Assembly: GCA_018648265.1 (NCBI GenBank)
Contig: JABGRN010000010.1
Coordinates: 1-64,000, forward strand
Direction of reading: 5' to 3'
DNA: 64,000 nucleotides
Source: Prolixibacteraceae bacterium
GTDB taxonomy: Bacteria; Bacteroidota; Bacteroidia; Bacteroidales; Prolixibacteraceae
Shown here: positions 1,552-60,197 of the stretch, one piece after another
Position numbering within the stretch: position 1 is the first letter of the stretch
Layout: each line of letters opens with the position of its first letter
The notes under the pieces: generated by a model
The model's database searches: none
Told to the model about the DNA's origin: nothing
What the model saw: only the letters and a program-made list of their open reading frames with translations
Program-made: the position numbers and the translations under genes

Positions 1552-1594
1552 TATATATCTTTCTTTAGTTTTCATATTATATTCATTTTCAGGA

Positions 1595-4889: not shown

Positions 4890-5094
4890 CAAAACAAGCT
4901 CGAAAAAGCCACTATTTAAAGATTGTTTTTGCACTCACTACTTTGCAAAACTTTCAAAAAAAAGAAATGATATTATGAAAAAGCACAGATTAATTTTGAA
5001 ATTCCTCAAATAGCTAAACATGCAAAAATTAAATAAAAATTAACAATGAAAAGGAAAAAGAGAAATTGAAAAATAGTTTCGTTTAATAATTTTC

Positions 5095-5102
5095 TAACTT
5101 TG
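5095..5102 (+). promoter_or_regulatory. Bacteroidota -7 box (TAACTTTG)
   Basis: TAACTTTG matches the TAnnTTTG consensus exactly and lies 27 bases before the ATG at 5129. The -33 element is not clear. This promoter would drive the redox, propeller and sulfatase genes at 5129-9302. Confidence 0.55.
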
Positions 5103-5128
5103 TTACCGCTGGGAAAGCTAATATAATA

Positions 5129-5761: not shown

Positions 5762-5791
5762 CAATTTAACATAACACATAAATTTTTATAA

Positions 5792-7495
5792 ATGAAGTTA
5801 AAAATCACAGATGAAAGCTATAATATACTAAAAACAGCAATCCGTTCTTTTTCAACAATTTTGTTCGTAGTTATGCCGTTGCTAAATTTATATGCGCAAA
5901 ATGGCAAGGTTAATTTTACTGATGTTACTGAACAAGCCGGGATTGATTTCCGATACACTTTCGGTGACTTTACTTACGAAAATATTCTAGAAAGCAGTGG
6001 TTCGGGAATAACCATTTTCGATTATAACAACGACGAACTTCCCGATTTATATATGTTAAATGGGACTTATCTCGAAGGAATATCCGACCCGGATGGCAAA
6101 GTATTTAAAAACACACGCAATAAACTCTATAAAAATAATGGAGATGGAACTTTTTCTGAAGTCGCGCATAAAGCAGGAGTTGACGACCCGAACTGGAGTA
6201 TGGCTGCTGGTGTAATTGATATTGATAACGATGGAGACGAAGATTTGTATCTATTAAATTACGGACCCAATATTTTTTTTCGCAACAATGGCGATGGAAC
6301 TTTTAGCGATATTACACAATCGCTGGAACTTGAAGGACCGACTCTGTTAAATGGGTTTACAAAATGGAGTGTTGGTGTTGCTTTTTGGGATTTTAATTCA
6401 GACGATAGAATTGATGCCATGGTTGGAAATTTTTTAGCATTTGATCCCAATTATATTTCACCAACAACGCCCGAAATGATGCCTCATCCATCGGAATACA
6501 AAGGACAGGCAACCATGCTATATCAACAATTACCCAATGGAAAATTTAAGGATGTCACAAAAGAAAACGGTTTGTTTTTCCCCGATTCAAAATGTATGGG
6601 AATTACCATTTTCGATTACGACAACGATGACGACCTGGATATTTTTCAGGGAAACGATCATCAATTAAATTTCTTATTCAGAAACGATAATCAAAAATAC
6701 ACTGATGTTGCCATTGCAAGTGGGGTTGCAGCAAACAGCCACGGAGTTCCAACTGGATCAATGCACGGTTCCATTGGCGATATCGACGGAGATGGCTTAA
6801 TCGATTTACTTGTAACCGATCTCAGATATGGCGCAATGTACCGTAATATTGGCAACGGGTTGTTTGAAGATATTACTGAGAAAAGTGGCATTGCATCAGC
6901 GTTTGCAGGGAAAGGTGCCTGGGGTGCTGCATTTTTTGACTATGACAACGATGGTGACCTCGATATATTTTCTGCAAATGGTACGGCCGAGGAACTTATT
7001 CTTCAACATCCGGTGTTGTTGGAAAATGATGGCAATGGACGTTTCAAGGATATTGGACAAGAAAAAAGCAACTATTTTTCAACAAAAAGATCAGCCCGGG
7101 CAGCCGCTGTTTGGGACTACGACAATGACGGGGATTTGGATATAATTGTATCTCACATCGATCTTCAGGCTACAGCTACACTTCTTAGAAACGACGGTGG
7201 CAATTCAAATCATTGGCTTGGATTAAAACTAATTGGCAAAAACGGTCCTGCTTCAGCAATCGGTGCAAAGGTTATTGTAAAAATTGGAGATAAAAAACAA
7301 GTTTATGTAAACCAAAATGCAACGAGTTATCTTTCATACAACGATCCTCGTGTTCATATTGGTTTGGGAAATAATAATAAAATTGATCAAATAGAAATAC
7401 ATTGGTCGAACGGAAAGAAAGAAATTTATGAGAATCCTCAAATCGATCGTTACCTGACAATTAAAGAAGAAATTGGCATCTTAAAAAAGGAATAG
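5792..7495 (+). CDS. FG-GAP/VCBS repeat beta-propeller protein with C-terminal ASPIC/UnbV domain
   Basis: 567 residues. A hydrophobic signal near 18-36 ends in LYAQ, so the protein is exported. Seven FG-GAP-type blades follow, each with a calcium-binding acidic loop, for example DIDNDGDEDLY, DYDNDDDLDIF, DIDGDGLIDLL and DYDNDGDLDII. The last about 100 residues (NHWLGLKLIGKNGPASAIGAKV...VHIGLG...IEIHWSNGK) form the ASPIC/UnbV domain. The architecture resembles CRTAC1-like proteins. In Bacteroidota such proteins are often encoded with SusCD or sulfatase genes and are presumed to bind glycans or calcium, but no reaction is established. It lies 30 bases after the redox gene and about 50 before the sulfatase, so an operon is likely. 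Confidence 0.9.
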   Translation: MKLKITDESYNILKTAIRSFSTILFVVMPLLNLYAQNGKVNFTDVTEQAGIDFRYTFGDFTYENILESSGSGITIFDYNNDELPDLYMLNGTYLEGISDPDGKVFKNTRNKLYKNNGDGTFSEVAHKAGVDDPNWSMAAGVIDIDNDGDEDLYLLNYGPNIFFRNNGDGTFSDITQSLELEGPTLLNGFTKWSVGVAFWDFNSDDRIDAMVGNFLAFDPNYISPTTPEMMPHPSEYKGQATMLYQQLPNGKFKDVTKENGLFFPDSKCMGITIFDYDNDDDLDIFQGNDHQLNFLFRNDNQKYTDVAIASGVAANSHGVPTGSMHGSIGDIDGDGLIDLLVTDLRYGAMYRNIGNGLFEDITEKSGIASAFAGKGAWGAAFFDYDNDGDLDIFSANGTAEELILQHPVLLENDGNGRFKDIGQEKSNYFSTKRSARAAAVWDYDNDGDLDIIVSHIDLQATATLLRNDGGNSNHWLGLKLIGKNGPASAIGAKVIVKIGDKKQVYVNQNATSYLSYNDPRVHIGLGNNNKIDQIEIHWSNGKKEIYENPQIDRYLTIKEEIGILKKE

Positions 7496-7544
7496 CAATT
7501 TTTTATTAATGAATAACGCAAGCAAAAAACTAAACCAAAATACC

Positions 7545-9302
7545 ATGAATAAAATTCTGATTCTTTTAACTATTTCTGTTTTTTTGATTTCATGTTCAAA
7601 AAAGGAAACTCAAACTCAACCAAATATTGTTTTGATTATGACCGACGATCAGGGTTGGGGCGATTTAAGTAGTAAAGGAAATACCAACATTTCTACTCCA
7701 AATATTGATAATCTGGCAGAAACGGGAGTTACTTTCGACCGGTTTTATGTTTGCCCCGTTTGCTCTCCCACCCGTGCAGAGTTACTCACCGGAAGATACC
7801 ATGTTCGTGGTGGGGTTTATTCAACTTCGGCTGGAGGTGAACGTCTAGATCTGGACGAAATCACAATTGCTGATATTTTTAAAGAAGCTGGATATTCTAC
7901 TGCAGCTTACGGAAAATGGCACAACGGAATGCAGCCACCCTACCATCCGAATGCCCGTGGGTTTGATGATTATTATGGATTTTGTTCTGGTCATTGGGGG
8001 AATTATTTCAGCCCGATGTTAGAACACAACGGCGAAATTGTAAAAGGAAAAGGTTTTATTATCGATGATTTAACTGAACACGGATTACAGTTTATGGAAA
8101 ATAACAAGGACAATCCGTTTTTTCTTTACTTACCCTACAATACACCACATTCTCCGATGCAGATTCCAAAAAAATGGTGGACCAAATTTGAAAACATGGA
8201 CTTAGGTTTGCAAAATCGTGACCCGGAAAAAGAAAATATTCTTCACACAAAAGCAGCTTTGGCAATGTGCGAAAACATCGATTGGAATGTTGGCCGTATT
8301 TCCGAAAAAGTAAAGGAATTGGGACTTGCTGAAAATACAATTATAATTTATTTATCGGATAACGGGCCAAATGGCTGGCGGTGGAACGATGGAATGAAAG
8401 GGAGAAAAGGATCAACCGACGAAGGCGGAGTACGCTCTCCATTGTTTATGAAATGGGACGGAAAATTGAAAGCAGGAAAAACAATTTTTGAAATCGCCAG
8501 TGCCATTGATTTGCTACCAACTTTAACTGATTTAGCAGGAATAAATTTTACAACAGAAAAACAATTAGACGGAGTTAGTTTGAAACCTTTAATAATGGAA
8601 GAAAACCCGGAATGGCAAGATCGAGTAATTATTAATTCGTGGCGACAAAGAACCAGTGTACGCAGTCAACAATACAAATTAGGTTGGGAAGGACAATTGT
8701 TTGACATGACAAAAGACCCCGGACAAAACACAGATATTTCGAGTGAAAATCCTGAAATAAAAAAACAACTGATTCAGGCTAAAGAAAAATGGGAGAATGA
8801 AGTTTTAATTGAACTCACTGAAATTGATGAACGAACTTTTACGGTTGGCCATCCTGAATATAAATTCACACAAATTCCTGCCCGAGATGGAAAAGCACAT
8901 GGAAATATTTTGCGCTCGAACCGACATCCAAATTGTACTTTTTTCACCAACTGGACAGGTGTTGAAGATAAAATTACATGGGAAGCAGAAGTTTTGGCCG
9001 ACGGTGATTTCGAAGTGGAAATATATTATACTTGCTCTGCCGAAAATGTAGGATCAACCTTTGAACTTAGTTTTGGCGATGAAAAGATAATAGCAAAAAT
9101 AACCGAACCGCACGATCCTCCATTAACGGGAATGGAAAACGACCGCGATCCACGAATTGAATCATTTGTAAAAGAATTCAAACCTCTTAAAATCGGTACA
9201 ATTCATTTAAAAAAAGGGATGGGTACATTAACACTAAAAGCTCACGAAATCACAGGCTCACAAGTAATGGATTTCAGGCTATTAATGTTGAAAAGAATTT
9301 AA
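7545..9302 (+). CDS. Formylglycine-dependent sulfatase (lipoprotein)
   Basis: The alkaline-phosphatase-fold sulfatase signature is complete: TDDQGWGD metal site near the N-terminus, then CSPTR with LLTGR. The Cys of CSPTR is the residue converted to formylglycine. It also has GKWH, a second metal motif SDNGPNG and the GGVRSPLF stretch. I prefer the ATG at 7545 over 7509 because it gives a clean lipoprotein signal (MNKILILLTISVFLISC). The last about 120 residues form an extra beta-rich domain (from ITWEAEVLADGDFEVEIYY) seen on some Bacteroidota sulfatases and possibly carbohydrate-binding. It removes sulfate from a glycan outside the inner membrane; the substrate is unknown. No maturase (anSME or FGE) is encoded in the window. 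Its stop overlaps the stop of the next, convergent gene. Confidence 0.93.
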   Translation: MNKILILLTISVFLISCSKKETQTQPNIVLIMTDDQGWGDLSSKGNTNISTPNIDNLAETGVTFDRFYVCPVCSPTRAELLTGRYHVRGGVYSTSAGGERLDLDEITIADIFKEAGYSTAAYGKWHNGMQPPYHPNARGFDDYYGFCSGHWGNYFSPMLEHNGEIVKGKGFIIDDLTEHGLQFMENNKDNPFFLYLPYNTPHSPMQIPKKWWTKFENMDLGLQNRDPEKENILHTKAALAMCENIDWNVGRISEKVKELGLAENTIIIYLSDNGPNGWRWNDGMKGRKGSTDEGGVRSPLFMKWDGKLKAGKTIFEIASAIDLLPTLTDLAGINFTTEKQLDGVSLKPLIMEENPEWQDRVIINSWRQRTSVRSQQYKLGWEGQLFDMTKDPGQNTDISSENPEIKKQLIQAKEKWENEVLIELTEIDERTFTVGHPEYKFTQIPARDGKAHGNILRSNRHPNCTFFTNWTGVEDKITWEAEVLADGDFEVEIYYTCSAENVGSTFELSFGDEKIIAKITEPHDPPLTGMENDRDPRIESFVKEFKPLKIGTIHLKKGMGTLTLKAHEITGSQVMDFRLLMLKRI

Positions 9303-26822: not shown

Positions 26823-28244
26823 ATGAAACTAAACCATCAGTTAATTATTTCTTTTCTGCTTATCGGTTTTTTAGCCATTTTTAATGTGAATTGCACACAA
26901 AAGAAAAAACAACTAAATATTATAATTTTTGTTGCCGACGATTTGGGTTATGGCGATTTAGGTAGTTACGGATGTACCGATATTCAAACACCCAACATCG
27001 ACAAGCTGGCAAAACAAGGAGTACGGTTTACTAATTTTTATACCAACGGACCGGAGTGTACTCCAACCCGTGTTGCACTTTTAACCGGTCGGTATCAGCA
27101 ACGTGCGGGAGGATTAGAATGTGCTCTGGGAGCAGGAAATGTTGGTCGATACGACGAAGCAATTTGGTTGAGTGAACAAAAAGAGCTGGGTTTGCCGGTT
27201 TCTGAAAACTCTTTGGTGCAAACCGTAAAACGAGTTGGTTACGAAACTGCAATGTTTGGGAAATGGCATTTGGGTTACGAAAAGAAATTTCGCCCGAATA
27301 AGCAGGGATTCGATTACTCATTTGGCCCGATTGGTTATGGCGGCGATTATTTTTATCATACCGAGCAGGTTAATCATGGCTTGTCAGATTTTACAGGAAT
27401 GCACACTTTGGCCGAAAATGGAAAAGAAGTCGATTATACCGGAGAATATTTTACTGATTTAATTTCGAATAAAGCAGTTGCTTGGTTGCAAAATAGAAAC
27501 AAAGAAAATCCTTTTTTACTTTACATGCCTTATACCGCGCCACACTCACCATATCAGGGACCAAATGATAAAATCGAGCGGCCATTGAAAGCAGATGAAT
27601 GGAACTTGGGAAGCCGCGAGACTTACATAGAAATGACAGAGGCACTGGATAATGGAATTGGTAAAATTCTCAATTATTTAACTGAAAACGAATTGGATGA
27701 GGAAACCCTGGTGATTTTCGTTTCAGATAATGGTGGAACTAAATTTGCCAATAATGGAATCTTTTCGGGATTTAAAGGTCAGGTTTACGAAGGAGGAATT
27801 CATGTGCCATGTATAATACGATGGCCTGGAAAAGTGCAAGCAAATTCAACTTCAAAGCAAACATGCATTTCAATGGATTTAACCAAGTCGGTAATAAATC
27901 TGCTCGATTCTGAAAATGAAAGTCTGGAATTAGATGGATACGACATTTTAAATCACGTAATTCAAAATAAACCAGACTTTGATCGCTCTCTTTTCTGGCG
28001 GGCAAAAAGGGGAGACCGGATTCAAAAAGCAATACGCGATGGCGATTTTAAATATCTTATTAGATTAGACAATGATTCCATTTCCGACGAAAAGTTATTC
28101 AACCTAAAAACCGATCCTTCTGAATTAAATGATTTATTAAAATCCTCAGACGAAAAAGCTGAAGAATTAAAAACTAAATTGAATGAATGGGAAAAAGATG
28201 TAAAATCTCCAAGATTGGAAGTGTTTGAGAACATTCTGAGATAA
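26823..28244 (+). CDS. Formylglycine-dependent sulfatase (lipoprotein)
   Basis: 473 residues. Lipoprotein-type signal ending NVNC (Cys24). Metal and active-site motifs: ADDLGYGD near 38-45, Cys79 of CTPTR with LLTGR, GKWHLG, and SDNGGTKFANNG. Cys79 is the formylglycine precursor. It is shorter than the sulfatase at 7545 and lacks the extra C-terminal domain. Its late region (FWRAKRGDRIQKAIRDGDFKYL) matches subfamilies acting on glycan sulfate esters, but the sugar is unknown. It lies directly before the oxidative glycan block at 28401 and may feed it. Maturation depends on an enzyme outside the window. Confidence 0.93.
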   Translation: MKLNHQLIISFLLIGFLAIFNVNCTQKKKQLNIIIFVADDLGYGDLGSYGCTDIQTPNIDKLAKQGVRFTNFYTNGPECTPTRVALLTGRYQQRAGGLECALGAGNVGRYDEAIWLSEQKELGLPVSENSLVQTVKRVGYETAMFGKWHLGYEKKFRPNKQGFDYSFGPIGYGGDYFYHTEQVNHGLSDFTGMHTLAENGKEVDYTGEYFTDLISNKAVAWLQNRNKENPFLLYMPYTAPHSPYQGPNDKIERPLKADEWNLGSRETYIEMTEALDNGIGKILNYLTENELDEETLVIFVSDNGGTKFANNGIFSGFKGQVYEGGIHVPCIIRWPGKVQANSTSKQTCISMDLTKSVINLLDSENESLELDGYDILNHVIQNKPDFDRSLFWRAKRGDRIQKAIRDGDFKYLIRLDNDSISDEKLFNLKTDPSELNDLLKSSDEKAEELKTKLNEWEKDVKSPRLEVFENILR

Positions 28245-28400: not shown

Positions 28401-29744
28401 ATGAAAAAAATCTTCTCTTTTTTAATTCTGTTTGTATTCATTATGAGCGGAGTAACCGTTGCACAAGACGGTTGGACAAATCTATTTAACGGTAAAGATC
28501 TTACCGGCTGGGAACAACTTAATGGCGAAGCAAAATATGATGTCGTTGACGGAATGATAGTGGGGACGACTGTTATGAATACACCTAATTCATTTATCCG
28601 TACCGCAAAAGTGTATTCCGATTTTGTATTTGAGGTGGATCTCTTGGTTGAAGAAAATATGAATTCAGGGATTCAGTTTCGAAGCGAAAGCAAAGCCGAT
28701 TACAATAATTATCGGGTGCATGGTTACCAGTGTGAAGTGGATCCTTCGGAACGTGCGTGGAGTGCAGGAATTTACGATGAAGCCCGTCGTGGTTGGTTAT
28801 ATCCACTGACTTTAAACCCGGATGCACAGTCGGCATTAAAAATGGGTAAATGGAATAAATACAGGGTCGAATGTATTGGAAGTTCAATTAAAACCTGGTT
28901 AAATGATGTTGCCGTGGCTCATATTATCGACGACATGACACCCGAAGGATTTATAGCTTTGCAGGTTCATGGAATTGGAACGAACAAAGAAAAAGAGGGC
29001 CAGCAAATCAAATGGAAAAATGTTCGTATTAAAACCGAAAACCTAAAACCTTCTAAGGGCGAAGGAATTTATGTAGAAAATCTTCTTGCAAATAATTTAA
29101 GCGATTGGGAAAAAGAACAAGGATTTTCATTGTTGTTTGATGGTGAATCAACAAAATGTTGGAAAAGTGCAAATGCCGATGAGTTTCCTAAGCAAGGTTG
29201 GGAAGTGAAAGACGGAGTTTTATCTGTGCTGGATAATAGTGGCGACAAAACTAAAAAAGGTGGTGATATTGTTACCAAAAAAGAGTTTGGTGCTTTTGAA
29301 TTAAAATTTGATTTTAATTTTTCAGAAGGTGCAAATAGTGGTATTAAATACGGACTTGGTAATAATGGTCCAAGTTTAGGTTTGGAGTATCAAATTCTTG
29401 ACGATGCAAAACACCCCGATGCAAAAATGGGTGCTGCGGGAAATCGTACTTTGGCTTCATTGTATGATTTAATTCCTGCGGTTAAAGAGCGTAGGTTTAT
29501 TAAAGGTGCCGGAGATTGGAATCGCGGTAGGATTATTGTTTATCCTTGCGGAACAGTTCAACATTGGTTAAATGGCCGAAAAGTTGTGGAATACAAACGT
29601 GGTGATGCCATTTATAAAGCGTTGGTTGCAAGAAGTAAATATGCAAAACATGAAGATTTTGGTGTGGCAGAAAAGGGTCCGATCTTAATTCAGGATCATA
29701 ACAATTTTGTGCAATTTAAAAGTATAAAAATTAGAGAATTATAA
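28401..29744 (+). CDS. Exported double-DUF1080 protein (3-keto-glycoside hydrolase/hydratase type)
   Basis: 447 residues, signal peptide ending VAQ at 22. Two DUF1080 (PF06439, concanavalin-like) domains are in one chain. The first, about 24-212, starts DGWTNLFNGKDLTGWEQ. The second, about 238-447, starts FSLLFDGESTKCWKS and ends FKSIKIREL. Each has its own 'WNxxRI/V' strand (GKWNKYRVECIG and GDWNRGRIIVYP). Family members were shown to hydrolyse 3-keto-disaccharides or hydrate the enone made from 3-keto-glycosides. Single-domain forms are common; the two-domain chain is less so. It is followed two bases later by the TIM-barrel gene, matching that pathway. The reaction here is inferred. Confidence 0.88.
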   Translation: MKKIFSFLILFVFIMSGVTVAQDGWTNLFNGKDLTGWEQLNGEAKYDVVDGMIVGTTVMNTPNSFIRTAKVYSDFVFEVDLLVEENMNSGIQFRSESKADYNNYRVHGYQCEVDPSERAWSAGIYDEARRGWLYPLTLNPDAQSALKMGKWNKYRVECIGSSIKTWLNDVAVAHIIDDMTPEGFIALQVHGIGTNKEKEGQQIKWKNVRIKTENLKPSKGEGIYVENLLANNLSDWEKEQGFSLLFDGESTKCWKSANADEFPKQGWEVKDGVLSVLDNSGDKTKKGGDIVTKKEFGAFELKFDFNFSEGANSGIKYGLGNNGPSLGLEYQILDDAKHPDAKMGAAGNRTLASLYDLIPAVKERRFIKGAGDWNRGRIIVYPCGTVQHWLNGRKVVEYKRGDAIYKALVARSKYAKHEDFGVAEKGPILIQDHNNFVQFKSIKIREL

Positions 29745-29746
29745 TC

Positions 29747-30592
29747 ATGACAAACAGAAGAAAATTTTTAAAGGCTGCCGGATTGGGAATGGCTGCTGCT
29801 GCAGTTCCCGGTTTAGCAAAAGCATCAGTTTCGCAAGCTGTACCAGCAAAAGGTAAATTCAAATTTACACTTGGGGTTGCTTCTTATACACTTCGTAAAT
29901 TTTCTACCGAACAAGCGTTAGACATGACTTTAAGGTGCGGTGTAAACCGGATAACATTTAAAAGCATGCACCTCCCGCTTGATTCAGGAGCTTCGACAAT
30001 TAAAAGCACTTTGGCTTTATGCAAAAAGAAGGGTATTACTTTGTATGGCGCCGGTGTTATAACCATGCGGACAAAAGAAGATGCCGACCAGGCATTTGCG
30101 TATGCAAAAGCTGCCGGTTTAGATATGATCATTGGTGTTCCACATCCACCAGTATTGGAATATGTTGAGAAATTGGTGAAAGAGAACGATATTAAACTCG
30201 CCATCCACAATCACGGACCAGGCGATGATCTTTATCCAAGTGCCGAAAGCATAAATGATAAAATCAAAAATATGGATAAACGAATGGGAATGTGCTTAGA
30301 TATTGGCCACACCCAACGAATTAATCGAGATCCTATTCAGGATCTTAAAGATTATTACGATCGCATTTTCGATATTCATATTAAAGATGTGTTTCCAACA
30401 GATGATCATCCGGAGGGAACAACTTGCATAATGGGACGTGGAAATATAGAATTAGTTAAATTCCTAAAAACGGTTATTGATTTGGGATATAGCGGAACTT
30501 TGGCTTTAGAATACGAAGCAGATGCAGAAGCACCACTTCCGGGAATGATGGAAAGTTTTGGTTTTGTAAAAGGTGTTTTAGCAACAATGTAA
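29747..30592 (+). CDS. Tat-exported TIM-barrel sugar isomerase/epimerase-like protein (PF01261)
   Basis: 281 residues with a twin-arginine signal (MTNRRKFLKAAGLGMAAAAVPGLAKA). The rest is a xylose-isomerase-like TIM barrel. Likely metal-site residues are His154/His156 (IHNHGPG), Asp185 and His188 (CLDIGH), His211 (DIHIKD) and Glu255 (LALEYE). Members encoded beside DUF1080 and Gfo/Idh proteins have been described as lyases that eliminate the aglycone from 3-keto-glycosides. That role fits here but is inferred. Two bases after the DUF1080 gene and 17 before the next oxidoreductase, so one operon. Confidence 0.88.
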   Translation: MTNRRKFLKAAGLGMAAAAVPGLAKASVSQAVPAKGKFKFTLGVASYTLRKFSTEQALDMTLRCGVNRITFKSMHLPLDSGASTIKSTLALCKKKGITLYGAGVITMRTKEDADQAFAYAKAAGLDMIIGVPHPPVLEYVEKLVKENDIKLAIHNHGPGDDLYPSAESINDKIKNMDKRMGMCLDIGHTQRINRDPIQDLKDYYDRIFDIHIKDVFPTDDHPEGTTCIMGRGNIELVKFLKTVIDLGYSGTLALEYEADAEAPLPGMMESFGFVKGVLATM

Positions 30593-30609
30593 ATTCAAAT
30601 AAAAAAAAT

Positions 30610-31953
30610 ATGAGTTCAAATAGAAGAGATTTTTTAAGAAAAGTAACAGCTGGTGCTGCTGGAGTTGCAGTTGGTGGTTCGGCAATGGGAATGTCGGCGC
30701 GAAGTTATGGTAGAATAATTGGTGCTAACGAACGAATAAATGTTGCAATTTTGGGTTTGGGACGCCGTTTGGGTGCTTATTATGAGCCAATCGGTCAGAA
30801 AGAAAACAATGTTGAATTGTTGTATTTGTGCGATGTAATGGAAAGCCAGCGCGAAAGAGCCGCTGAAAGATTTTCAAAACACATCGATTATAAACCAAAA
30901 CTCGAAAATGATTTCCGTAAAATTATTGCCGATCCTAAAGTTGATGCGATAATAAATGCTACTCCCGACCATTGGCATGCTCCCGGTGCTATAATGGCGT
31001 TAAAAGGTGGAAAACATGTTTATGTTGAAAAACCCGGTAGCCATAATATGAATGAAAGTGAATTACTTGTTGACGCTCAGAAAAAGTACAATAAAGTGGT
31101 ACAAATGGGTAACCAACAACGTTCATCGGGTCATACTCAAGAAATTATTAAAGAAATTCACAACGGAATTATTGGTACTCCATACAAAGCACTTGCATTT
31201 TACACAAACAAACGTGGAGAAGTTCCTGTGCAGAAAAAAGTACCGGTTCGTCAAGGTTTGGATTGGGATCTTTTCCAGGGACCTGCACCTCGCCGCGAAT
31301 ATACCGAAGAATCGTGGGATTACAATTGGCACTGGTACGGTTGGGATTTTGGAACAGCTGAATCGGGTAACAATGGTACACATGAATTGGATGTCGCACG
31401 TTGGGCTTTGCAGGTTGATTATCCAAATCGTGTTGATGTTGATGCTGGTAAACGACATTTTAAAAACGATGGTTGGGAAATGTACGATACAATGTTTGCC
31501 ACATTTAAATTCGATAATGACACTGTAATTAACTGGGACGGAAAAAGTCGTACCGGTCATGATACTTATGGCGGCGGACGTGGTACAATTATTTATGGTA
31601 GCGAAGGTTCTGTTTTTGTAGATCGTGGTAAATATATTTTATACGACAGAAACGGAAAAAAAGTAAAAGATAATCAATCCACTTCAAACGAAGCCGGAAC
31701 AGCTCTTGGCGGCGGTGGTGATATGACAACCGGACACGTTGTGAACTGGTTCGAAGGAATTCGTGGAAAAGGGAAATTAAATGCCCACATTGCTGAGGGT
31801 TTAATTAGCCAGGCAATGGTGCATTATTCAAATGTAGCTTATCGGATTGACAAAGGATTTGATATTGATACTGTTTCTGGAAGGATGTACGATAGAGACG
31901 CCATGAAATTGTGGAGTCGTACTTATGAACCCGGATGGGAACCAACATTATAA
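30610..31953 (+). CDS. Tat-exported Gfo/Idh/MocA oxidoreductase
   Basis: 447 residues. Twin-arginine signal MSSNRRDFLRK with an Ala/Gly-rich hydrophobic stretch to about 30. Rossmann part starts INVAILGLGRRLGAYYE (43-58). The EKP catalytic motif is at 140-142 (HVYVEKPGSHN). The C-terminal domain holds GTHELDVARWAL, where His and Asp sit near the sugar. Such enzymes oxidise a sugar hydroxyl with tightly bound NAD(P). Tat export fits a protein folded with its cofactor. Last gene of the unit with DUF1080 and the TIM barrel, closed by a terminator. It probably makes or reduces the 3-keto sugar; direction is not readable. Confidence 0.9.
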   Translation: MSSNRRDFLRKVTAGAAGVAVGGSAMGMSARSYGRIIGANERINVAILGLGRRLGAYYEPIGQKENNVELLYLCDVMESQRERAAERFSKHIDYKPKLENDFRKIIADPKVDAIINATPDHWHAPGAIMALKGGKHVYVEKPGSHNMNESELLVDAQKKYNKVVQMGNQQRSSGHTQEIIKEIHNGIIGTPYKALAFYTNKRGEVPVQKKVPVRQGLDWDLFQGPAPRREYTEESWDYNWHWYGWDFGTAESGNNGTHELDVARWALQVDYPNRVDVDAGKRHFKNDGWEMYDTMFATFKFDNDTVINWDGKSRTGHDTYGGGRGTIIYGSEGSVFVDRGKYILYDRNGKKVKDNQSTSNEAGTALGGGGDMTTGHVVNWFEGIRGKGKLNAHIAEGLISQAMVHYSNVAYRIDKGFDIDTVSGRMYDRDAMKLWSRTYEPGWEPTL

Positions 31954-31965
31954 AACCTAATTTGA

Positions 31966-31997
31966 AAGGATTTTCAGAAATGGAAATCCTTTTTTTT
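31966..31997 (+). terminator. Rho-independent terminator
   Basis: AAGGATTT at 31966-31973 pairs with AAATCCTT at 31984-31991 around a ten-base loop, followed by a T run to 31997. It separates the 28401-31953 unit from the next Gfo/Idh gene. Confidence 0.8.
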
Positions 31998-32029
31998 ACT
32001 TTACTTCTTTAACTTAAAAATTAAACCTA

Positions 32030-33475
32030 ATGACTTCAAGAAGAAAATTTATAAAGAGATCGGCTGCAACGATTGGGGCTTTTACGATTGTCCCAGGTCA
32101 TGTTCTATTTGCCAAAGATGAAATTAGAAATGCTACCGGTGAATTAGTTCAACCAAGAATTGTTGCACCAAGCGATAAAGTAAATATGGCATTTTGTGGA
32201 ATTGGAAACCGTGGTGGACAGATTCTAAGAGCGCACAACGAAACCGGAATGATTAATACAACTGTTCTGTGTGATGTGGATATGGGAGCCAAGCACACAT
32301 TGAGAACTTTGGAAGCTTATCCAAAAGCAAAACAATATCAGGACTTCCGCGAAATGTTTGAAAAATCGGCAAAAGAGTTTGATGCTGTGTGTGTCGGAAC
32401 TCCTGATTTTTCGCATTTCCCAATTACAATTCTGGCCATGTCTCAAGGAAAACATGTATATGTTGAAAAGCCATTAACCCGGACTTTTAACGAATCGGAG
32501 TTGTTGATTAAAGCTGAAAAAAAATATGGAGTTGTTACTCAGATGGGAAATCAAGGACACTCCGAGGGAAATTATTATCAATTTAAATCGTGGGTTGAAA
32601 ACGGCATTATTAAAGATGTTACTAAAATTACTGCCCACATGAATGGCAAACGCCGTTGGCACGGTTTCGAAGTTAACATGAAAAATTACCCGGTTAACCC
32701 TGTTGTTCCTGAAACATTAGATTGGGACGTTTGGTTAATGACGGCGAAAAAACACGGTTACCATGAAGATTTTGTAAACGGACAATGGCGATGTTGGTAC
32801 GAACACGGGATGGGCGCACTGGGCGACTGGGGAGCTCATATTATCGATACAGCACATCAATTTCTTGATTTAGGAATGCCTTATGAAGTTGATCCGGTTA
32901 GAATTGAAGGACATAATAAATTGTTTTTTCCAATGGAAACCACGCTGGATTTTAAATTTCCTAAAAGGAAAAAAATGCCGGCTTGTACAATAACATGGTA
33001 CGACGGACAAAACAATATTCCACAAGTACCAGAAGGTTATGGCGAATTAGAAATTGACCCAAATATTCCGCCTGCAAGTAATGGTGTAATGCAACCTGCA
33101 AAATTAGGCGCAGGTAAAGAAATTTATGGGAAAGACCTTACTTTTAAAGGTGGTTCGCATGGAAGGACTTTGACAATTATTCCACCTGAAGCGGCAAAAG
33201 ACATGGAATCTAAATTGCCAGAGGTGCCGGAAGCTCCATCAAACCATTTCGAGAATTTCCAAAGAGCAATCCAGGGCACAGAAAAAACAAATTCCCCTTT
33301 CGAAGTATCCGGTCCTTTAAGTCAGGTTTTCTGCTTAGGAACCATTGCACAACGTTTAAACACTAAAATTAAATTTGACAGGAAAACAAAACAAATTACC
33401 AATAATAAAGTGGCAAACCAGTTACTGGAAGGAACACCACCACGCTTAGGTTGGGAACAGTTTTACAAATTGTAG
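32030..33475 (+). CDS. Tat-exported Gfo/Idh/MocA oxidoreductase (second)
   Basis: 481 residues, twin-arginine signal MTSRRKFIKRSAATIGAFTIVPG. Nucleotide-binding VNMAFCGIGNRGGQIL at 51-66, EKP motif at 146-148 (HVYVEKPLTRTFNES), and GDWGAHIIDTAHQFLDLG in the substrate domain. It differs from the preceding oxidoreductase by long insertions rich in Pro and Gly (YDGQNNIPQVPEGYGELEIDPN). It belongs to the subgroup often found as a second dehydrogenase in 3-keto-glycoside loci. It has its own transcription segment between two terminators, and its 3' flank carries a MITE. Confidence 0.9.
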   Translation: MTSRRKFIKRSAATIGAFTIVPGHVLFAKDEIRNATGELVQPRIVAPSDKVNMAFCGIGNRGGQILRAHNETGMINTTVLCDVDMGAKHTLRTLEAYPKAKQYQDFREMFEKSAKEFDAVCVGTPDFSHFPITILAMSQGKHVYVEKPLTRTFNESELLIKAEKKYGVVTQMGNQGHSEGNYYQFKSWVENGIIKDVTKITAHMNGKRRWHGFEVNMKNYPVNPVVPETLDWDVWLMTAKKHGYHEDFVNGQWRCWYEHGMGALGDWGAHIIDTAHQFLDLGMPYEVDPVRIEGHNKLFFPMETTLDFKFPKRKKMPACTITWYDGQNNIPQVPEGYGELEIDPNIPPASNGVMQPAKLGAGKEIYGKDLTFKGGSHGRTLTIIPPEAAKDMESKLPEVPEAPSNHFENFQRAIQGTEKTNSPFEVSGPLSQVFCLGTIAQRLNTKIKFDRKTKQITNNKVANQLLEGTPPRLGWEQFYKL

Positions 33476-33489
33476 AGAAAATATTTTAA

Positions 33490-33756
33490 TAACCTGAGTT
33501 CGATTAAAAAAATATCACACAGAAAGTCGATGTTGTGCTAGATTTGGATTAAAAAAAATGAAATAATAACGGGTTATTCTGAGGTTTTTTTAATTCGAAG
33601 ATAGTGCAACATAGACTTTTTCATTTAGACTTCGATAATTTTCCAATATCCTTCCTTAAATTTTCTTGAATTATCCCGATAAACCTTCAAAAATTTAAGT
33701 TGCCTATTGAAAAATTATCTAAAGCTGTGTGCATATTTTTAATCGAACTCAGGTTA
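33490..33756. mobile_element. Non-autonomous MITE-like element, copy 1, with perfect terminal inverted repeats
   Basis: The ends are perfect inverted repeats: TAACCTGAGTTCGATTA plus four A at 33490-33510, and the complement at 33736-33756. Total 267 bases, no ORF of note. A related element with the same ends lies at 59990-60197 in the opposite orientation, sharing an internal GGGATAATTC-AAGAAAATTT-like core. The flanks suggest TA or TTAA target bases. It sits between the oxidoreductase stop (33475) and its terminator (33769). No transposase in the window. Confidence 0.8.
33523..33619. repeat. Internal long imperfect palindrome nested in the MITE
   Basis: About 48-base arms run from AAAGTCGATGTTGTG inward to AATAACGGGTTATT at the centre (33565-33578), then back out to GCAACATAGACTTT. 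The arms pair with scattered mismatches. The centre resembles the MITE's own end (AATAACC...). The sister copy lacks this segment, so it is a nested insertion or a fold-back duplication of one end. Confidence 0.65.
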
Positions 33757-33768
33757 ATAGATTAGAAG

Positions 33769-33802
33769 ACTCCTTGATAAAAATTATCAGGGAGTTTTTT
33801 TT
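33769..33802 (+). terminator. Rho-independent terminator
   Basis: ACTCCTTGATAA at 33769-33780 pairs with TTATCAGGGAGT at 33784-33795 (12 pairs, one G-T) with a three-base loop and eight T. It probably ended the 32030 gene before the MITE separated them. Confidence 0.85.
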
Positions 33803-33857
33803 ATTTCTATTTTTACTAGATTATTATTTAACTTTTCTAAAATATCAAACTTAAATT

Positions 33858-35138
33858 ATGAAAACTAAAATATTTTTTTCATTTCTTTTTGTGCTATTTA
33901 TTTCTGTTCAAATTTTTGCACAGCCACGTCGCGAACTGGTTAAAGTTATTGTAACTCCCGATAAAACTGATTGGACATACAAAACCGGAGAAAGGGCTGA
34001 ATTTTCAATTTCAGTTATAAAAAATAATGTAAGATTAGATGGAATTGAAGTAAACTATAAAATTCAACCAGAAAAAGTAGAAGTTTGGGATGAAGGTAAA
34101 ATCACCTTAAAAAAAGGGACTGCAACAATAAAAGCGAAAAAATTTAAAGAGCCCGGTTTCCTTCGATGTCACGCTTCGGTTGAAGTTGATGGAAAAACCT
34201 ACACGTCGTATGCCACGGCAGGTTTTTCACCTGAAAAGATTGAACCAACCACAACTTTACCCGAAGATTTTGAGGAGTTTTGGAATAATGGAAAAGAAGA
34301 ACTTTCTAAAGTTGCTATAAATCAGGTTATGACTTTGATGCCCGAAAGATGCACGGATAAAGTGGATGTATATCATGTAAGCATCAATAACATTAAAGGG
34401 AAAATTTACGGGATTTTATGCAAACCCAAAAAGGAAGGAAAATATCCGGCTATTTTACATGTTCCTGGGGCCGGAATTCGTCCTTACTACGGTGATGTCT
34501 GGGAAGCCGAAGCAGGTTTTGTTTCATTTACCATTGGAATTCATGGTATTCCTGTAAACCTGGATCCTGTTGTTTACAACGATTTAATGCAGGGTGCTTT
34601 AAACGGATACTGGACTACAAATATGGATGACAAAGATAATTACTATTACAAACGGGTTTATCTGGGATGTGTTCGAGCGGTTGATTTTATCGAAACCCTT
34701 GATTGTTTTGATGGCGAAAATATTGGCGTAACCGGTGGAAGTCAGGGTGGTGCGCTTTCAATTGTCACAGCCGGTTTGGACGATCGGATTGATTACCTCG
34801 CAGCATTTTATCCGGCATTGTCCGACTTTACCGGATTTTTGCATGAAAGAGCTGGCGGCTGGCCACAAATTTTTAGAAACGATTACACCAACAAACCTGA
34901 AAAAATTGAAACCTCGAAATATTACGATGTTGTTAACTTCGCTCGTTTTGTTCAAGTTCCGGGTTGGTACAGTTGGGGATACAACGATAATGTTTGTCCG
35001 CCAACTTCAACTTATGCTGCTTACAATGTAATTCAAGCTGAAAAAGAATTGCATATTTTTCAGGAAACGCAACATTGGACTTTCCCAGAACAGCACGAAT
35101 TAAAAAATGATTGGCTATTTGAGAAACTTAAAAAGTAA
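33858..35138 (+). CDS. Exported acetyl-xylan esterase-like hydrolase (CE7 type)
   Basis: 426 residues, signal ending IFAQ at 22. An Ig-like N-terminal domain (about 25-120: DKTDWTYKTGERAEFSISV...KTYTSYATAGFSP) precedes an alpha/beta-hydrolase of the acetyl xylan esterase (AXE1) group. It starts LPEDFEEFWNNGKEEL, which is typical of CE7. Ser295 (GGSQGG), Asp377 (YNDNVCPP) and His406 (TQHWTFPEQHE) form the triad. It removes acetyl groups from sugars or oligosaccharides. First of five closely packed genes; its stop is directly followed by the ApbE start with no gap. Confidence 0.9.
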   Translation: MKTKIFFSFLFVLFISVQIFAQPRRELVKVIVTPDKTDWTYKTGERAEFSISVIKNNVRLDGIEVNYKIQPEKVEVWDEGKITLKKGTATIKAKKFKEPGFLRCHASVEVDGKTYTSYATAGFSPEKIEPTTTLPEDFEEFWNNGKEELSKVAINQVMTLMPERCTDKVDVYHVSINNIKGKIYGILCKPKKEGKYPAILHVPGAGIRPYYGDVWEAEAGFVSFTIGIHGIPVNLDPVVYNDLMQGALNGYWTTNMDDKDNYYYKRVYLGCVRAVDFIETLDCFDGENIGVTGGSQGGALSIVTAGLDDRIDYLAAFYPALSDFTGFLHERAGGWPQIFRNDYTNKPEKIETSKYYDVVNFARFVQVPGWYSWGYNDNVCPPTSTYAAYNVIQAEKELHIFQETQHWTFPEQHELKNDWLFEKLKK

Positions 35139-36059
35139 ATGAGCGAACAACCAATTTTTAACGACTCTTTTTTTGCCATGGGAACCCGCTGCGATGTTGT
35201 ATTTTTAAATATCGAACAGGAATTTGGTGAGCAAATATTCCATCTTATAAAAAATGAGGTGACACATTTAGAGCATCGGATGAGTCGTTTTATACCTGAT
35301 TCTCCTTTATCGGAATTAAATAAAGCCGGTAAAAATGAATGGATTCCAGTAACCGATGATTTATGGAATATCCTGACCATCTGTTTCGATTTTTATCAAA
35401 TGAGTAACGGGGCTTTTGATATTACCGCTGCACCAATAATCAAGCTTTGGAAAAGTAATAAACCTCCTACTAAAGATGAAATTGAAAAGGCAAAACAAAT
35501 TAGTGGTTTTGATAAAGTGGAATTTGATTTTGAAAACCAGAAGATAAAATTTAAGACTGATGGGCTTGAATTCGATTTGGGTGCAATTGGAAAAGGGCTT
35601 GCTCTTGATTCAATAAAACCAATAATTTTGAAACAAGGTATTGAAAACGGAATTATTAGTTTTGGCGAAAGTTCAATTTTAGCTTTGGGTAAACATTCGA
35701 ATGGAAAAAACTGGCCTCTGGGTATAAGAAATATGTACAATTTTAATAAATTTGTTCACGTTTTTTCAACCAGTAACGAAACCATTACAACGTCAGCTAC
35801 AATTTTAAATACCGATGATGGGGGCGTTAAAAAAAGAAAACACATTATTAGTCCTGTTTCAGGATTACCGGTGGAAGTGAACAAAGCAGTATCAATAAAA
35901 TCAGAATCAGCAACCTTGGGAGAGTTTTTATCGACAAGCTTTTTAATACTACCAGAAAACGATAAAATAATCCTATCCGAAAAACTAAAAAAGATTGAAA
36001 TTTTGGAGGTGGAATATTTAGATGACAACAACTTTAAATCAAAATTAACAATACTTTAA
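35139..36059 (+). CDS. Divergent ApbE-family protein (FAD:protein FMN transferase-like) without export signal
   Basis: 306 residues. The ApbE fold is recognisable from FFAMGTRCDVVF, FDITAAPIIKLW, FDLGAIGKGLALD, HIISPVSGLPV and SATLGEFLSTSFLIL. ApbE enzymes attach FMN to Thr/Ser of exported flavoproteins and are usually signal-bearing. This one starts directly at the mature-like sequence, and no longer start is possible because the upstream stop adjoins it. Consensus residues differ: the usual HIIDPxTG is HIISPVSG, the ADALST metal motif is GEFLST (Asp to Glu), and the NAGGDIxALG stretch is SFGESSILALG. Cytoplasmic location or altered activity is therefore likely. No FMN-binding target is visible nearby. 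Confidence 0.85.
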   Translation: MSEQPIFNDSFFAMGTRCDVVFLNIEQEFGEQIFHLIKNEVTHLEHRMSRFIPDSPLSELNKAGKNEWIPVTDDLWNILTICFDFYQMSNGAFDITAAPIIKLWKSNKPPTKDEIEKAKQISGFDKVEFDFENQKIKFKTDGLEFDLGAIGKGLALDSIKPIILKQGIENGIISFGESSILALGKHSNGKNWPLGIRNMYNFNKFVHVFSTSNETITTSATILNTDDGGVKKRKHIISPVSGLPVEVNKAVSIKSESATLGEFLSTSFLILPENDKIILSEKLKKIEILEVEYLDDNNFKSKLTIL

Positions 36060-36067
36060 AATAGATT

Positions 36068-37345
36068 ATGGAATCAAAGATCAAAAATAGAAGGGATTTT
36101 TTAAAAGAGATGGGAGTTTATGCCAGTTCTACTGCATTCCTTGCTTCAATTCCCTGGTTAGATGCTTTTGCACAAGAAAATGGAAAAAATGTTGCAGCGT
36201 CAGATCGGGTACGAATAGCGGTTATTGGTGTAGGTAGCAGGGGCAGAGCTTTGTTAATGAATTTGCAACAAGTTGAAAATGTTGAAATTGTTGCAGTTTG
36301 CGATAACTACGAACCACATTATTCGCGCGCAATTGAATTAACCGATGGTAAGGCAAAAGCTTTTTACGATCATAAAAAAATGATCGACGCGGTAAAAGAT
36401 ATCGATGCAGTGGTAGTTGCCACTCCTCTGCACGAACATGCCCATATTGTTGTTGATTGCCTGAATGCAGATATCCACGTGTTCTGCGAAAAAGCAATGG
36501 CACGAACACTCGTGGATACAAAATTAATGGCAGACACTGCAATTGCAAAGGGGAAAATTTTGCAAATCGGACAACAACGTTTATTTAACCCTGTTTATTT
36601 AAATGCATTGGAAAGAGTCAGGGCAGGCGAAATCGGGCAGATTACCCAGGTGCGTGCTTATTGGCACCGCAATGCAGACTGGCGTCGTCCGGTTCCAAGC
36701 CCGGAATTGGAACGTAAAATAAATTGGCGGATGTACAACGAGTATTCCGGTGGTTTAATGACCGAATTGGCGGCTCACCAGGTTCAGGTTGCTAACTGGT
36801 ATATCGACAAAGTTCCTACACAGGTTATGGGATCCGGAAGTATCTGCTTTTGGAAAGATGGTCGCGAAGTTTACGATCACGTTGCACTGGTTTACGATTA
36901 TCCCGATGGATCAAAATGTACCTACGATTCGATGATTGCCAACAAACATCATGGTTTGGAAGAACAAATTATGGGAAACCTTGGTACAATCGAACCGGAA
37001 ATAAACCGTATTTATTCTGAGAATCCACCTCAGGCTCCGGGGATTCGTCAGTTGGTTCACGACATCGAATCTAGTATTTTCGATGTAATACCAATTGGAG
37101 GTGCAACTTGGATACCGGAAACGGCGGTTCAATATCGTGGCGATGTTATTGCTCCTTATGAAAATAACGATAGTTTTTTGCAATTTGTTGGTTTCGCAAA
37201 AGCTGTAAAAAATAATAAACCTTACCCTAATTTGTTGCGCGAAGGATATCATGCTACCATTGCCGTGTTGTTGGGATTGCAAGCGATGGATACCAACGAA
37301 ATAGTTGCCTGGCCCGCTGAATACGTTATGGAAAAGGATGTATAG
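36068..37345 (+). CDS. Tat-exported Gfo/Idh/MocA oxidoreductase (third, EKA motif)
   Basis: 425 residues, signal NRRDFLKEMGVYASSTAFLASIPWLDAFAQ (8-36, twin-arginine type). Rossmann start VRIAVIGVGSRGRALL (48-63). The usual EKP motif reads EKA at 141-143 (VFCEKAMARTL), keeping the Lys. The substrate domain has GGLMTELAAHQVQVANWYID. It lies eight bases after the ApbE gene and in one operon with a CE7 esterase and a PmoA-like protein. Probably a third sugar dehydrogenase of the exported oxidative system; the natural substrate is unknown. Confidence 0.9.
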   Translation: MESKIKNRRDFLKEMGVYASSTAFLASIPWLDAFAQENGKNVAASDRVRIAVIGVGSRGRALLMNLQQVENVEIVAVCDNYEPHYSRAIELTDGKAKAFYDHKKMIDAVKDIDAVVVATPLHEHAHIVVDCLNADIHVFCEKAMARTLVDTKLMADTAIAKGKILQIGQQRLFNPVYLNALERVRAGEIGQITQVRAYWHRNADWRRPVPSPELERKINWRMYNEYSGGLMTELAAHQVQVANWYIDKVPTQVMGSGSICFWKDGREVYDHVALVYDYPDGSKCTYDSMIANKHHGLEEQIMGNLGTIEPEINRIYSENPPQAPGIRQLVHDIESSIFDVIPIGGATWIPETAVQYRGDVIAPYENNDSFLQFVGFAKAVKNNKPYPNLLREGYHATIAVLLGLQAMDTNEIVAWPAEYVMEKDV

Positions 37346-37391
37346 AAAAGGGTAAATTTTAAATACTAAATCAGCAAAAAAAAAGATTATA

Positions 37392-37628
37392 ATGAAAGAT
37401 ATAACAATTACCGGTTCAAGGATAAAAAAAGAAATAATCATTGCAGTGGTCAGTCTTCTCGCTGCGATAATTTTAAATATATTCTCAATCGCAAAGTTTA
37501 AAACCGACTGGAGCGAATTATTTGGTCAACTCCATGTTGTGATTCTGGTTGCCATCGCAATTTATATTTTGGTATTAATTTTCAGGTTGATATTTTGGGG
37601 AATTGCCGGTTTGATTCAAAAAAAATAG
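37392..37628 (+). CDS. Small two-helix membrane protein
   Basis: 78 residues. Two hydrophobic helices: IIIAVVSLLAAIILNIFSIA and VILVAIAIYILVLIFRLIFWGIAGLI, with a short loop FKTDWSELFGQLHV. It lies 46 bases after the third oxidoreductase and four before the PmoA-like gene, so it is translated within this operon. No family recognised. It could anchor or connect the exported enzymes to the membrane; that is speculation. Confidence 0.72.
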   Translation: MKDITITGSRIKKEIIIAVVSLLAAIILNIFSIAKFKTDWSELFGQLHVVILVAIAIYILVLIFRLIFWGIAGLIQKK

Positions 37629-37632
37629 AAAT

Positions 37633-38547
37633 ATGAATCGACTTATCTGGTTTTTATTTTTTGTGATATTAGGGGTTTCAGTAAACGCCCAGGTTAAAAT
37701 GCAAAAGTCGGAGGGCGGTTTGATTTTTACCGAGGGAAATGAAAATATTTTGTTTTACCAGATTGAACCCAAAAATCACGAAGGTGAATACGAACGTTGC
37801 AATTATATTCATCCGCTTTGGGGAATTGATGGGACGGTTTTAACTGAAGACTTCCCTGCTGACCATTTGCACCACCGTGGTATTTTCTGGACCTGGCACC
37901 AGGTTTGGGTTGGAGAGCAACGAATTGGCGATCCCTGGGAAATAAAAGAATTTGACCAGGAAATAACAGATGTAGAATATTCAGCCAGGAAAAATGGGAC
38001 TGCGATTTTAAAAACCGAAGTTGATTGGAAATCGGACAAATGGAAAAAACAAGGTGAAAAAATTCCTTACCTAAAAGAAAATACAACAATAACGATTCAT
38101 CCAAAATCTGATAATTACAGAAAAATTGATTTTGAAATTCAATTGCTGGCCATGGCAGAAAACCTAAGAATTGGAGGTTCAGAAGATGTAAAAGGTTACA
38201 GTGGTTTTTCCGTTCGAATGGTTTTGCCCAACGATGTTCTTTTCACCGGACCAGAAGGAGAAATCGAGCCGCAAAATACAGCGGTTGAATCGCTTGATTA
38301 TGTAAATGTTTCAGGTAGTTTATTGGAAAATGATAAAAAAGGTGGAATTGTAATGATGGACAATCCGGAAAACCCGGGTTATCCGCAATCGTGGATTCTC
38401 AGAAAACAAAGGAGTATGCAAAATGCCGCTTATCCGGGAAATAAAACAATTGCTGTGTCAACCACAAAACCACTTATCTTAAAATATTCGTTGCTGGTTT
38501 ATTCCGGAAAAATGAGTGATAAAAAGATTCAAAAAATAATAAAATAA
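37633..38547 (+). CDS. Exported PmoA-like / DUF6807 protein
   Basis: 304 residues, signal peptide ending VNAQ. The family signature is visible: FYQIEPKNHEGEYERCNYIHPLWGIDG, DFPADHLHHRGIFWTWHQVWVG (a His-rich stretch) and SGFSVRM. The PF14100 name 'methane oxygenase PmoA' is a historical label. Members in Bacteroidota lie with Gfo/Idh and DUF1080 genes in glycan loci, and the activity is not settled. The His cluster (HLHHRG) suggests a metal or sugar site. Last gene of the 33858-38547 operon. Confidence 0.88.
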   Translation: MNRLIWFLFFVILGVSVNAQVKMQKSEGGLIFTEGNENILFYQIEPKNHEGEYERCNYIHPLWGIDGTVLTEDFPADHLHHRGIFWTWHQVWVGEQRIGDPWEIKEFDQEITDVEYSARKNGTAILKTEVDWKSDKWKKQGEKIPYLKENTTITIHPKSDNYRKIDFEIQLLAMAENLRIGGSEDVKGYSGFSVRMVLPNDVLFTGPEGEIEPQNTAVESLDYVNVSGSLLENDKKGGIVMMDNPENPGYPQSWILRKQRSMQNAAYPGNKTIAVSTTKPLILKYSLLVYSGKMSDKKIQKIIK

Positions 38548-59838: not shown

Positions 59839-59987
59839 TACCAATTGCTCTTCAAAATGCCGCTTAGCAAATTTTGAAATTACAATAGCCTGTCCCGAAT
59901 CTATTTCGAGAGTTAATACCGATAATACAAGAAAGAAGCAGATTGAACAAAGTGAAGTTTGCGATATAATGTTGTCAAATCGGTATT
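59838..59987. repeat. Dispersed two-hairpin intergenic repeat, copy 3
   Basis: 150 bases, opening ATACCAATTGCTCTTCAAAATG and closing AAATCGGTATT (ends are near inverted repeats). It carries about 24 extra bases (CCTGTCCCGAATCTATTTCG...) between the two hairpins compared with copy 1. The left end overlaps the TAA of the preceding gene. It abuts the MITE-like element at 59990. Confidence 0.75.
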
Positions 59988-59989
59988 AA

Positions 59990-60197
59990 TAACCTGAGTT
60001 CGATTATAAATATCATCACAGTTTAAGTTATTTTTTAGCAGAAATTGAAACAGATTTTTGAAGGACTACTTTTTTGCCTGTGGCAAGAAAAGTCGGGATA
60101 ATTCGAGAAAATTTGGAGCGATTTATGCAAAAAATAACTAAATCCGAAGGAAAAGTCAGACTTTCTGTGTTCAATATTTATAATCTAACTCAGGTTA
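59990..60197. mobile_element. Non-autonomous MITE-like element, copy 2
   Basis: 208 bases. The left end is TAACCTGAGTTCGATTA then TAAATAT; the right end (60174-60197) is its complement with one mismatch. The internal core shares TTTTTGAAGG and CGGGATAATTCGAGAAAATTT-like text with copy 1 read on the other strand. It lacks the nested palindrome of copy 1. Its right end supplies the stop codon of the TolB-like gene (60195-60197). Confidence 0.8.

Follow-up and report, generated by a model that had tools for sequence, protein, structure and literature searches.

An alternative pathway of glycan breakdown was reportedly described in a Nature paper of 2024. Among the closest described systems, the BT2156–BT2160 route of B. 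thetaiotaomicron joins a Gfo/Idh dehydrogenase, the periplasmic glycoside 3-dehydrogenase BT2158, to a DUF1080 partner (PMC11300592), and a DUF1080 hydrolase of 3-ketolactose was proposed to work in the periplasm together with the LacABC dehydrogenase (PMC9007349). DgpA, a C-/O-glycoside 3-oxidoreductase of the Gfo/Idh/MocA fold, holds nicotinamide adenine dinucleotide (NAD) and re-oxidises the resulting NADH by reducing 3-oxo-glucose (PMC11239390). Here, we analysed nine open reading frames (ORFs), named A to I, on the plus strand at positions 28401–38547 of a 64,000-nucleotide stretch (the window; positions 1 to 64,000 of contig JABGRN010000010.1, GenBank assembly GCA_018648265.1) from a Prolixibacteraceae bacterium. 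Homology supports an exported system of the 3-keto-glycoside type, which is an already known kind, as BT2158 was described as periplasmic and a periplasmic DUF1080 hydrolase was proposed. What is new is the pair formed by F, an ApbE homologue, and G, the third of three Gfo/Idh/MocA enzymes bearing twin-arginine translocation (Tat) signals. G probably carries flavin mononucleotide (FMN) that F attaches in the cytoplasm, ahead of Tat export.

The locus resembles BT2156–BT2160 in pairing a dehydrogenase with a DUF1080 partner in the periplasm, but it has a double-DUF1080 protein and the additional genes F, G and H, and its enzymes stayed below the 750-bit cut-off of NF058561 (BT_2158_fam glycoside 3-dehydrogenase), C scoring 151, D 284 and G 114 bits; D was the closest of the three to this family. 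DgpA, with its bound NAD and regeneration through a 3-oxo-sugar, provides a model for C and D, although it is a lower-scoring relative that carries NAD only, and no ApbE partner is mentioned in the accessible text (PMC11239390). The route of LacABC likewise couples periplasmic 3-oxidation to a DUF1080 hydrolase, but LacABC is a membrane-bound three-part dehydrogenase, and an ApbE-paired Gfo/Idh protein is not mentioned in the accessible part of that report (PMC9007349).

Proteins known to be flavinylated by ApbE include NqrC, RnfG, FMN_bind, Flavodoxin_4 and FMN_red (PMC12052999, PMC11334425), and the flavinylation motif is D-x-x-[ST]-G-A-[ST] (PMC12052999). A Gfo/Idh/MocA protein as an ApbE target was not found in a literature search whose scope left out most subscription journals and bioRxiv preprints, and the only co-mention of MocA and ApbE was in an unrelated seaweed study, as judged by its title and the start of its abstract. 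The F-G pair is like the known pairs in that the ApbE gene adjoins that of its target and in that the canonical motif occurs in relatives of G (class I, below); it differs from them in the Glu that replaces Asp in F, the lack of a signal on F and the altered motif of G. A cytoplasmic, signal-less ApbE that modifies its partner in the cytoplasm has been described in Klebsiella, where the partner is a soluble fumarate reductase, whereas here it would be a Tat-exported Gfo/Idh protein (PMC12052999).

The distribution of F and G was examined across 395 genomes of the phylum. Ten of these contained F-like matches of at least 237 bits, the next score being 175, and exactly the same ten had G matches above 700 bits. 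The score gap of G is partly there by construction because seven of the nine other genomes had supplied rows to its profile; the two that had not, G342 and G258, still scored above 700. F lay directly 5' of G on the same strand in all ten genomes, the window included. A scan of genome contigs with F returned 12 loci, 11 of them at 41–59% identity from relatives and one weak match at 25%; the named relatives of the source organism were Draconibacterium, Maribellus, a Prolixibacteraceae and one labelled Chlorobiota. Within the organism's own family, G was present in 19 of 140 genomes (E value, 1e-55), and one class I-like enzyme was found in genome G034. F was directly upstream of G in 27 of 30 distinct loci with G-type enzymes (class III), a gene fetched under two locus ids being counted once. 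The exceptions were L180, in which a contig edge lies 93 bases before G and there is an in-frame stop, L134, in which G is cut short and F is absent, and L193, in which F is downstream. The pair also recurred in distant families, at 31–38% identity for F and 47–57% for G, mostly without the rest of the cluster.

Near its C-terminal end, the window G carries IPIGGATW, which departs from the canonical motif. IPIGGA[ST]W was present in 13 of the 14 first sequences, with IPIGGESW in L048, and distant class III enzymes showed LPIGNSS, VAVAGTS and LPFAGTS among other variants. The acceptor column was Ser or Thr in every aligned class III row, preceded by Ala, Glu, Ser, Pro or Thr. The closest fetched relatives of G that are not paired with an F-type ApbE, 16 Tat-signal Gfo/Idh enzymes termed class I, contained D-G-V-[ST]-G-A-[ST] in 15 cases and VDGVAGAT in the remaining one; this count and those of class II below refer to a fetched subset of the profile matches (20 regions, twice), picked by score and place and not by motif. 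IPIGGAT and DGVSGAT shared one column in a MAFFT alignment, and hhalign, run on separately built alignments, again placed IPIGGAT on DGVSGAT (E value, 7e-88). In the tree, class I (16) and class III (15 rows) were each monophyletic and formed one group together with L130 (support 98/94). The 55-row alignment left out L116, L128, L134 and L135, each either a fragment or a long frame with a wrong start; in L116, L128 and L135, which enter no class count, an ApbE-like match lies on the same strand upstream.

The motif D-x-x-[ST]-G-A-[ST] occurred in 17 of 856 ORFs of at least 150 residues in four ORF sets, a collection that over-represents Gfo/Idh proteins as it includes the fetched loci. Sixteen of these were Gfo/Idh proteins, namely the 15 of class I and L051_11, and one was not. 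L051_11, which has DSVTGAS and was left out of the tree, is the third gene after A and C in G034. Other candidate flavin carriers were rejected: B has SGAS at residues 80–83 with no Asp three places before, and the 11 proteins of c9, c39 and c40 have no [ST]GA[ST] and a single GA[ST] run (VGAT, in c9 of L013). GxGxxG and EKP are motifs of the Gfo/Idh/MocA family. D has both, G has GVGSRG and EKA, and C has EKP with GLGRRL in place of GxGxxG. The NAD-type glycine motif and EK were kept in 15/15 class III rows each, so that NAD and FMN would share one enzyme.

The canonical catalytic triad of ApbE is Ser241, His257 and Asp285 in Vibrio cholerae (PMC12052999). In alignments, the window F has S219, H235 and, as the acid, E262, so that Glu occupies the canonical Asp position; the other ApbE of the source genome, which is lipoprotein-like, keeps Ser, His and Asp. 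Ser-His-Glu was found in 25 of the 28 loci with a readable F beside G and in none of 21 genomes of the organism's own genus in which F is present and G is missing (E value, 1e-55); L016, an S-H-E form after which the contig ends, is in neither group. In the G-less genomes (L197–L210, L212, L213 and L215–L219), His was lost in 21/21, Ser in 20/21 and the acid in 20/21, and F was followed by another Tat-signal Gfo/Idh protein (c9). The replaced sites differed among them (AKA, TKA, AQE, SKA, AQQ, APA, FYA, DVA and TLA), which looks like drift after release. By these residues, F seems to be an active enzyme in genomes with G and inactive in those without it, and the degraded F beside c9 is apparently an ApbE-fold pseudoenzyme, kept for some reason other than G.

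A further ApbE-linked clade, class II, comprised 15 rows (L105, L117–L127, L129, L153 and L155). It was monophyletic, and each member had an ApbE gene just upstream on the same strand; the class II ApbE proteins that were looked at had no apparent signal peptide. Ser-His-Asp was kept in all ten that were read (L105, L117, L119–L121, L123, L125, L126, L128 and L129; the partner of L128 is not in the tree).

Overall, we consider it rather probable that the locus is an exported oxidative glycoside-cleaving cluster in which G is an FMN-carrying Gfo/Idh enzyme flavinylated by F before Tat export. That G is an ApbE substrate is put forward as a prediction, not as an established fact, based on its pairing with F and on the sister clade with the canonical motif. 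In the proposed mechanism, C and D would use firmly bound NAD to oxidise C3 of a glycoside, A together with B would eliminate the aglycone and then hydrate the product, and E and I would trim or modify the substrate, all roles that are assigned by homology. G would belong to a Gfo/Idh/MocA clade with covalent FMN on a Ser or Thr of the C-terminal part; F would place FMN on Thr347 of G in the cytoplasm, and Tat would then export the folded enzyme. With both NAD and FMN, G could act as a redox outlet (or inlet) through which electrons pass between the membrane, perhaps by way of H, and the cycle of bound NAD(H) and 3-keto-sugar. The genes, the pairing of F with G, the homology of the motifs and the decay of the F active site in genomes that lack G are observations; flavin attachment, the residue that receives it, the path of electrons and the substrate are inferred. 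Regarding the origin of the pair, the simplest account is that an exported Gfo/Idh clade was recruited as ApbE substrates, of which class I keeps the canonical motif and could use an exported ApbE; in class III, motif and dedicated ApbE would have shifted jointly, with the ApbE remaining in the cytoplasm, the compartment in which Tat substrates fold.

Several observations weigh against this explanation, in addition to the partly constructed score gap of G. The window G lacks the canonical motif, with no Asp at −6 and Gly instead of Ser/Thr at −3, and F has Glu for the canonical Asp and no apparent signal peptide. The triad has exceptions beside G: S-N-E in L104/G174 and S-P-E in L193/G033, both with His lost and the latter with F downstream, and A-H-E in L179/G139, read by alignment of an F cut at the contig edge. 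A degraded F persists without G in 21 genomes, and F homologues can have a non-enzymatic role. The Fisher p-value for the triad split (5e-11) ignores relatedness, the 21 genomes being of one genus, and the loss of the active site in such close kin may represent one or few events. L130 stands beside class III in the tree and follows an ApbE-like frame, but has no motif (tree label 'oth'), and class II shows NAT or DAT for GAT and EA, EF, ES or EV for EK. ApbE was encoded in 18/18 tested genomes with class I or intermediate enzymes and also in 7/14 control genomes, a weak test. Lastly, His is not kept in H, and an electron route through H is speculation.

The absence of an apparent signal peptide, the Glu in the G-paired forms and the persistence of F with its active site gone beside the Tat-signal protein c9 would also be expected if F were a binding or maturation protein, for instance a cofactor-loading or proof-reading factor that holds G or another Gfo/Idh protein until NAD is bound, before Tat export. 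This seems unlikely, as the catalytic Ser and His, for which mere binding would have no use, are kept in nearly every G locus, and the canonical flavinylation motif occupies the corresponding position in the sister clade. Alternatively, F might flavinylate another protein, with the Ser/Thr of G serving the fold or substrate binding and the pairing reflecting shared regulation only. Neither G nor any other protein of the window cluster has the exact motif, and two FMN_bind proteins are encoded elsewhere in the genome; these are nevertheless the expected clients of the canonical lipoprotein-like ApbE, and the loss of the F active site where G is missing speaks for G as the client, so that we regard another client as less likely still.

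It is also conceivable that the locus is a typical exported 3-keto-glycoside cluster in which F and G are unrelated passengers without mechanistic relevance. In the source genome, PF06439 matched 31 times and the G profile 53 times, some of the latter matches being split pieces, and the A-to-I cluster is therefore one of many such loci there, among which neighbours of this sort are expected; gene content near A and C is also variable. The persistence of the F-G pair in distant families argues against a passenger role, which we hold to be the least probable of these alternatives. The preferred explanation, flavinylation of G by F, bears on a general problem, as extracytoplasmic NAD-dependent enzymes must re-oxidise trapped NADH, and the answer known in relatives is to reduce another metabolite, e.g., 3-oxo-glucose (PMC11239390). 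If true, covalent flavin on a Gfo/Idh enzyme would solve this problem in a second way, through transfer to the membrane, and such enzymes would be a new class of ApbE substrates, encoded beside DUF1080 glycan-cleaving genes. We give about an even chance to the broader proposal of a Tat-exported Gfo/Idh/MocA clade with bound NAD and covalent FMN, part of which, including the window, would have a motif and a cytoplasmic ApbE that co-evolved away from the canonical pair, so that the flavin is attached before export without cross-talk with the canonical ApbE. Electrons would then be able to leave the periplasmic 3-keto-glycoside route by a path that does not depend on the 3-keto-sugar. The textbook motif of class I makes the flavin prediction readily testable.

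The features of the locus are listed in Table 1. An earlier note on this DNA had described the same gene content on one strand, and ORF coordinates and Pfam matches agreed with it, its PmoA-like protein being the PF14100 protein I.

Table 1. Features of the A-to-I locus in the window, with predicted roles (Pfam cut-offs: PF01408, 24 bits; PF02424, 25.6 bits; FAD, flavin adenine dinucleotide; MITE, miniature inverted-repeat transposable element; Sec, general secretory pathway)
Feature	Positions	Strand	Description	Basis	Predicted role
A	28401-29744	+	Double DUF1080 (PF06439) 3-keto-disaccharide hydrolase-type protein, Sec-like signal	Two PF06439 stretches (Pfam)	Lyase/hydratase on 3-keto-glycosides
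B	29747-30592	+	PF01261 TIM-barrel protein, Tat signal	Pfam	Exported isomerase/hydratase-like partner
C	30610-31953	+	Tat-signal Gfo/Idh/MocA dehydrogenase	PF01408, 58 bits; GLGRRL, EKP	
D	32030-33475	+	Tat-signal Gfo/Idh/MocA dehydrogenase	PF01408, 63.6 bits	
Repeat between D and E	33487-33759	.	MITE-like repeat	Terminal inverted repeats	
E	33858-35138	+	CE7/AXE1-type esterase, Sec-like signal	PF05448; N-terminus	
F	35139-36059	+	ApbE homologue without apparent signal peptide	PF02424, 7.8e-53, 180 bits; alignments	Dedicated cytoplasmic FAD:protein FMN transferase for G
G	36068-37345	+	Tat-signal Gfo/Idh/MocA enzyme	PF01408, 70.3 bits	FMN-flavinylated enzyme
Motif in G	37088-37111	+	IPIGGATW, residues 341-348 of G	Conserved columns; hhalign match to DGVSGAT	Thr347 as flavin attachment residue
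H	37392-37628	+	78-residue protein 3' of G with two hydrophobic stretches (by eye)	Pfam: nothing	
I	37633-38547	+	DUF6807 (PF14100) protein, Sec-like signal	Pfam; N-terminus	

Both a PF06439 protein and a Gfo/Idh dehydrogenase are present at the locus, as expected for a route of 3-keto-glycoside cleavage. The nearest solved structures were 4jqt_A for A (E value, 6e-142) and 3lmz_A for B (2e-54), and among solved structures C, D and G matched the dehydrogenases 8tdf and 8tdh best (D against 8tdf_A, 5e-53). The exported C3-oxidation of glycosides that the earlier note had proposed is thus upheld by homology as to its type, but it is not new, BT2158 being periplasmic already. The same note had assigned the ApbE-like protein to redox coupling, a suggestion that was vague as first stated and that can now be narrowed to a specific tie between F and the third dehydrogenase, G.

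Export was assessed from the protein starts, a Tat start being RR-x-hydrophobic within the first 30 residues. Such starts were conserved in C (32/33 rows, and 33/33 once the wrong start of the last row was corrected), D (8/8) and G (5/5), in agreement with the Tat signals noted earlier. As a control, the slightly narrower pattern RRx[FLIVM] within the first 20 residues occurred in 5 of 397 other ORFs of at least 200 residues from the same loci. Of the 16 rows of B orthologues, ten began with a Tat signal and the other six with a Sec- or lipoprotein-like stretch; export of B is independently backed by this switch of signal type with export retained. TatC is encoded in the source genome. No signal peptide was seen on F by eye and hydropathy, no signal predictor having been run, and the earlier idea that the whole system acts outside the cytoplasm is therefore not supported as regards F. 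The N-terminal hydropathy of the F relative in L048 (1.87) was similar to that of the lipoprotein ApbE (1.81), and the other 21 F-type rows and L105 ranged from 0.77 to 1.49.

Conservation of gene order, which the earlier note had proposed as a check, was partial in a sample of 40 loci from the family, each centred on an orthologue or paralogue of A. A was followed by C, directly or past B, in 32 loci, and B was present in 15 by clustering. The whole order from A to I was found in one locus only (L018, in which a small additional ORF was called after C and before D), L016 extended from A to F before the contig end, and gene content around A and C varied widely in the remainder. In distant families, L104 had A-C-F-G-H, and L103 had A, a c40-type Gfo gene, F and G. 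A protein like H lay 3' of G in 7 of 15 loci examined, and H is a possible membrane partner of G. A role of H as a heme protein was rejected, its sole His being missing in L018, L031, L048 and L104.

The neighbourhoods of class I enzymes also contained related genes. A gene with two PF06439 stretches adjoined the class I gene in all three Pfam-annotated loci (L131, L141 and L142). The Gfo gene next to class I fell inside the C group of the tree in L136 and L138 and beside it in L146, and an ApbE with a signal-like N-terminus lay just upstream of the class I gene in 2 of 16 cases (L140 and L141). In L131 these genes stand between genes of rhamnosidase type: positions 8–7860 encode, in a row, GH106, a two-stretch PF06439 protein, a Gfo protein, a class I Gfo protein and Bac_rhamnosid6H, an arrangement that points to rhamnosides as what some class I systems act on.

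Hairpin-plus-T-run patterns were found in the C–D and D–E intervals. These patterns and the repeat element between genes cast doubt on a single operon, and several transcription units (A-B-C, D and E-to-I) may be present. The repeat is 273 bp long and has a second copy, 99% identical, at G000:C12:34793-35065; diverged relatives occur at 59987–60200 of the window and elsewhere. Two sulfatases (PF00884) are encoded in the window, at 7509–9302 and at 26823–28244, the latter directly upstream of A. Among the 40 loci, a sulfatase directly before A was found in L026 and L046 only, at low identity. From the sulfatase just 5' of A, the substrate of the window cluster may be sulfated.

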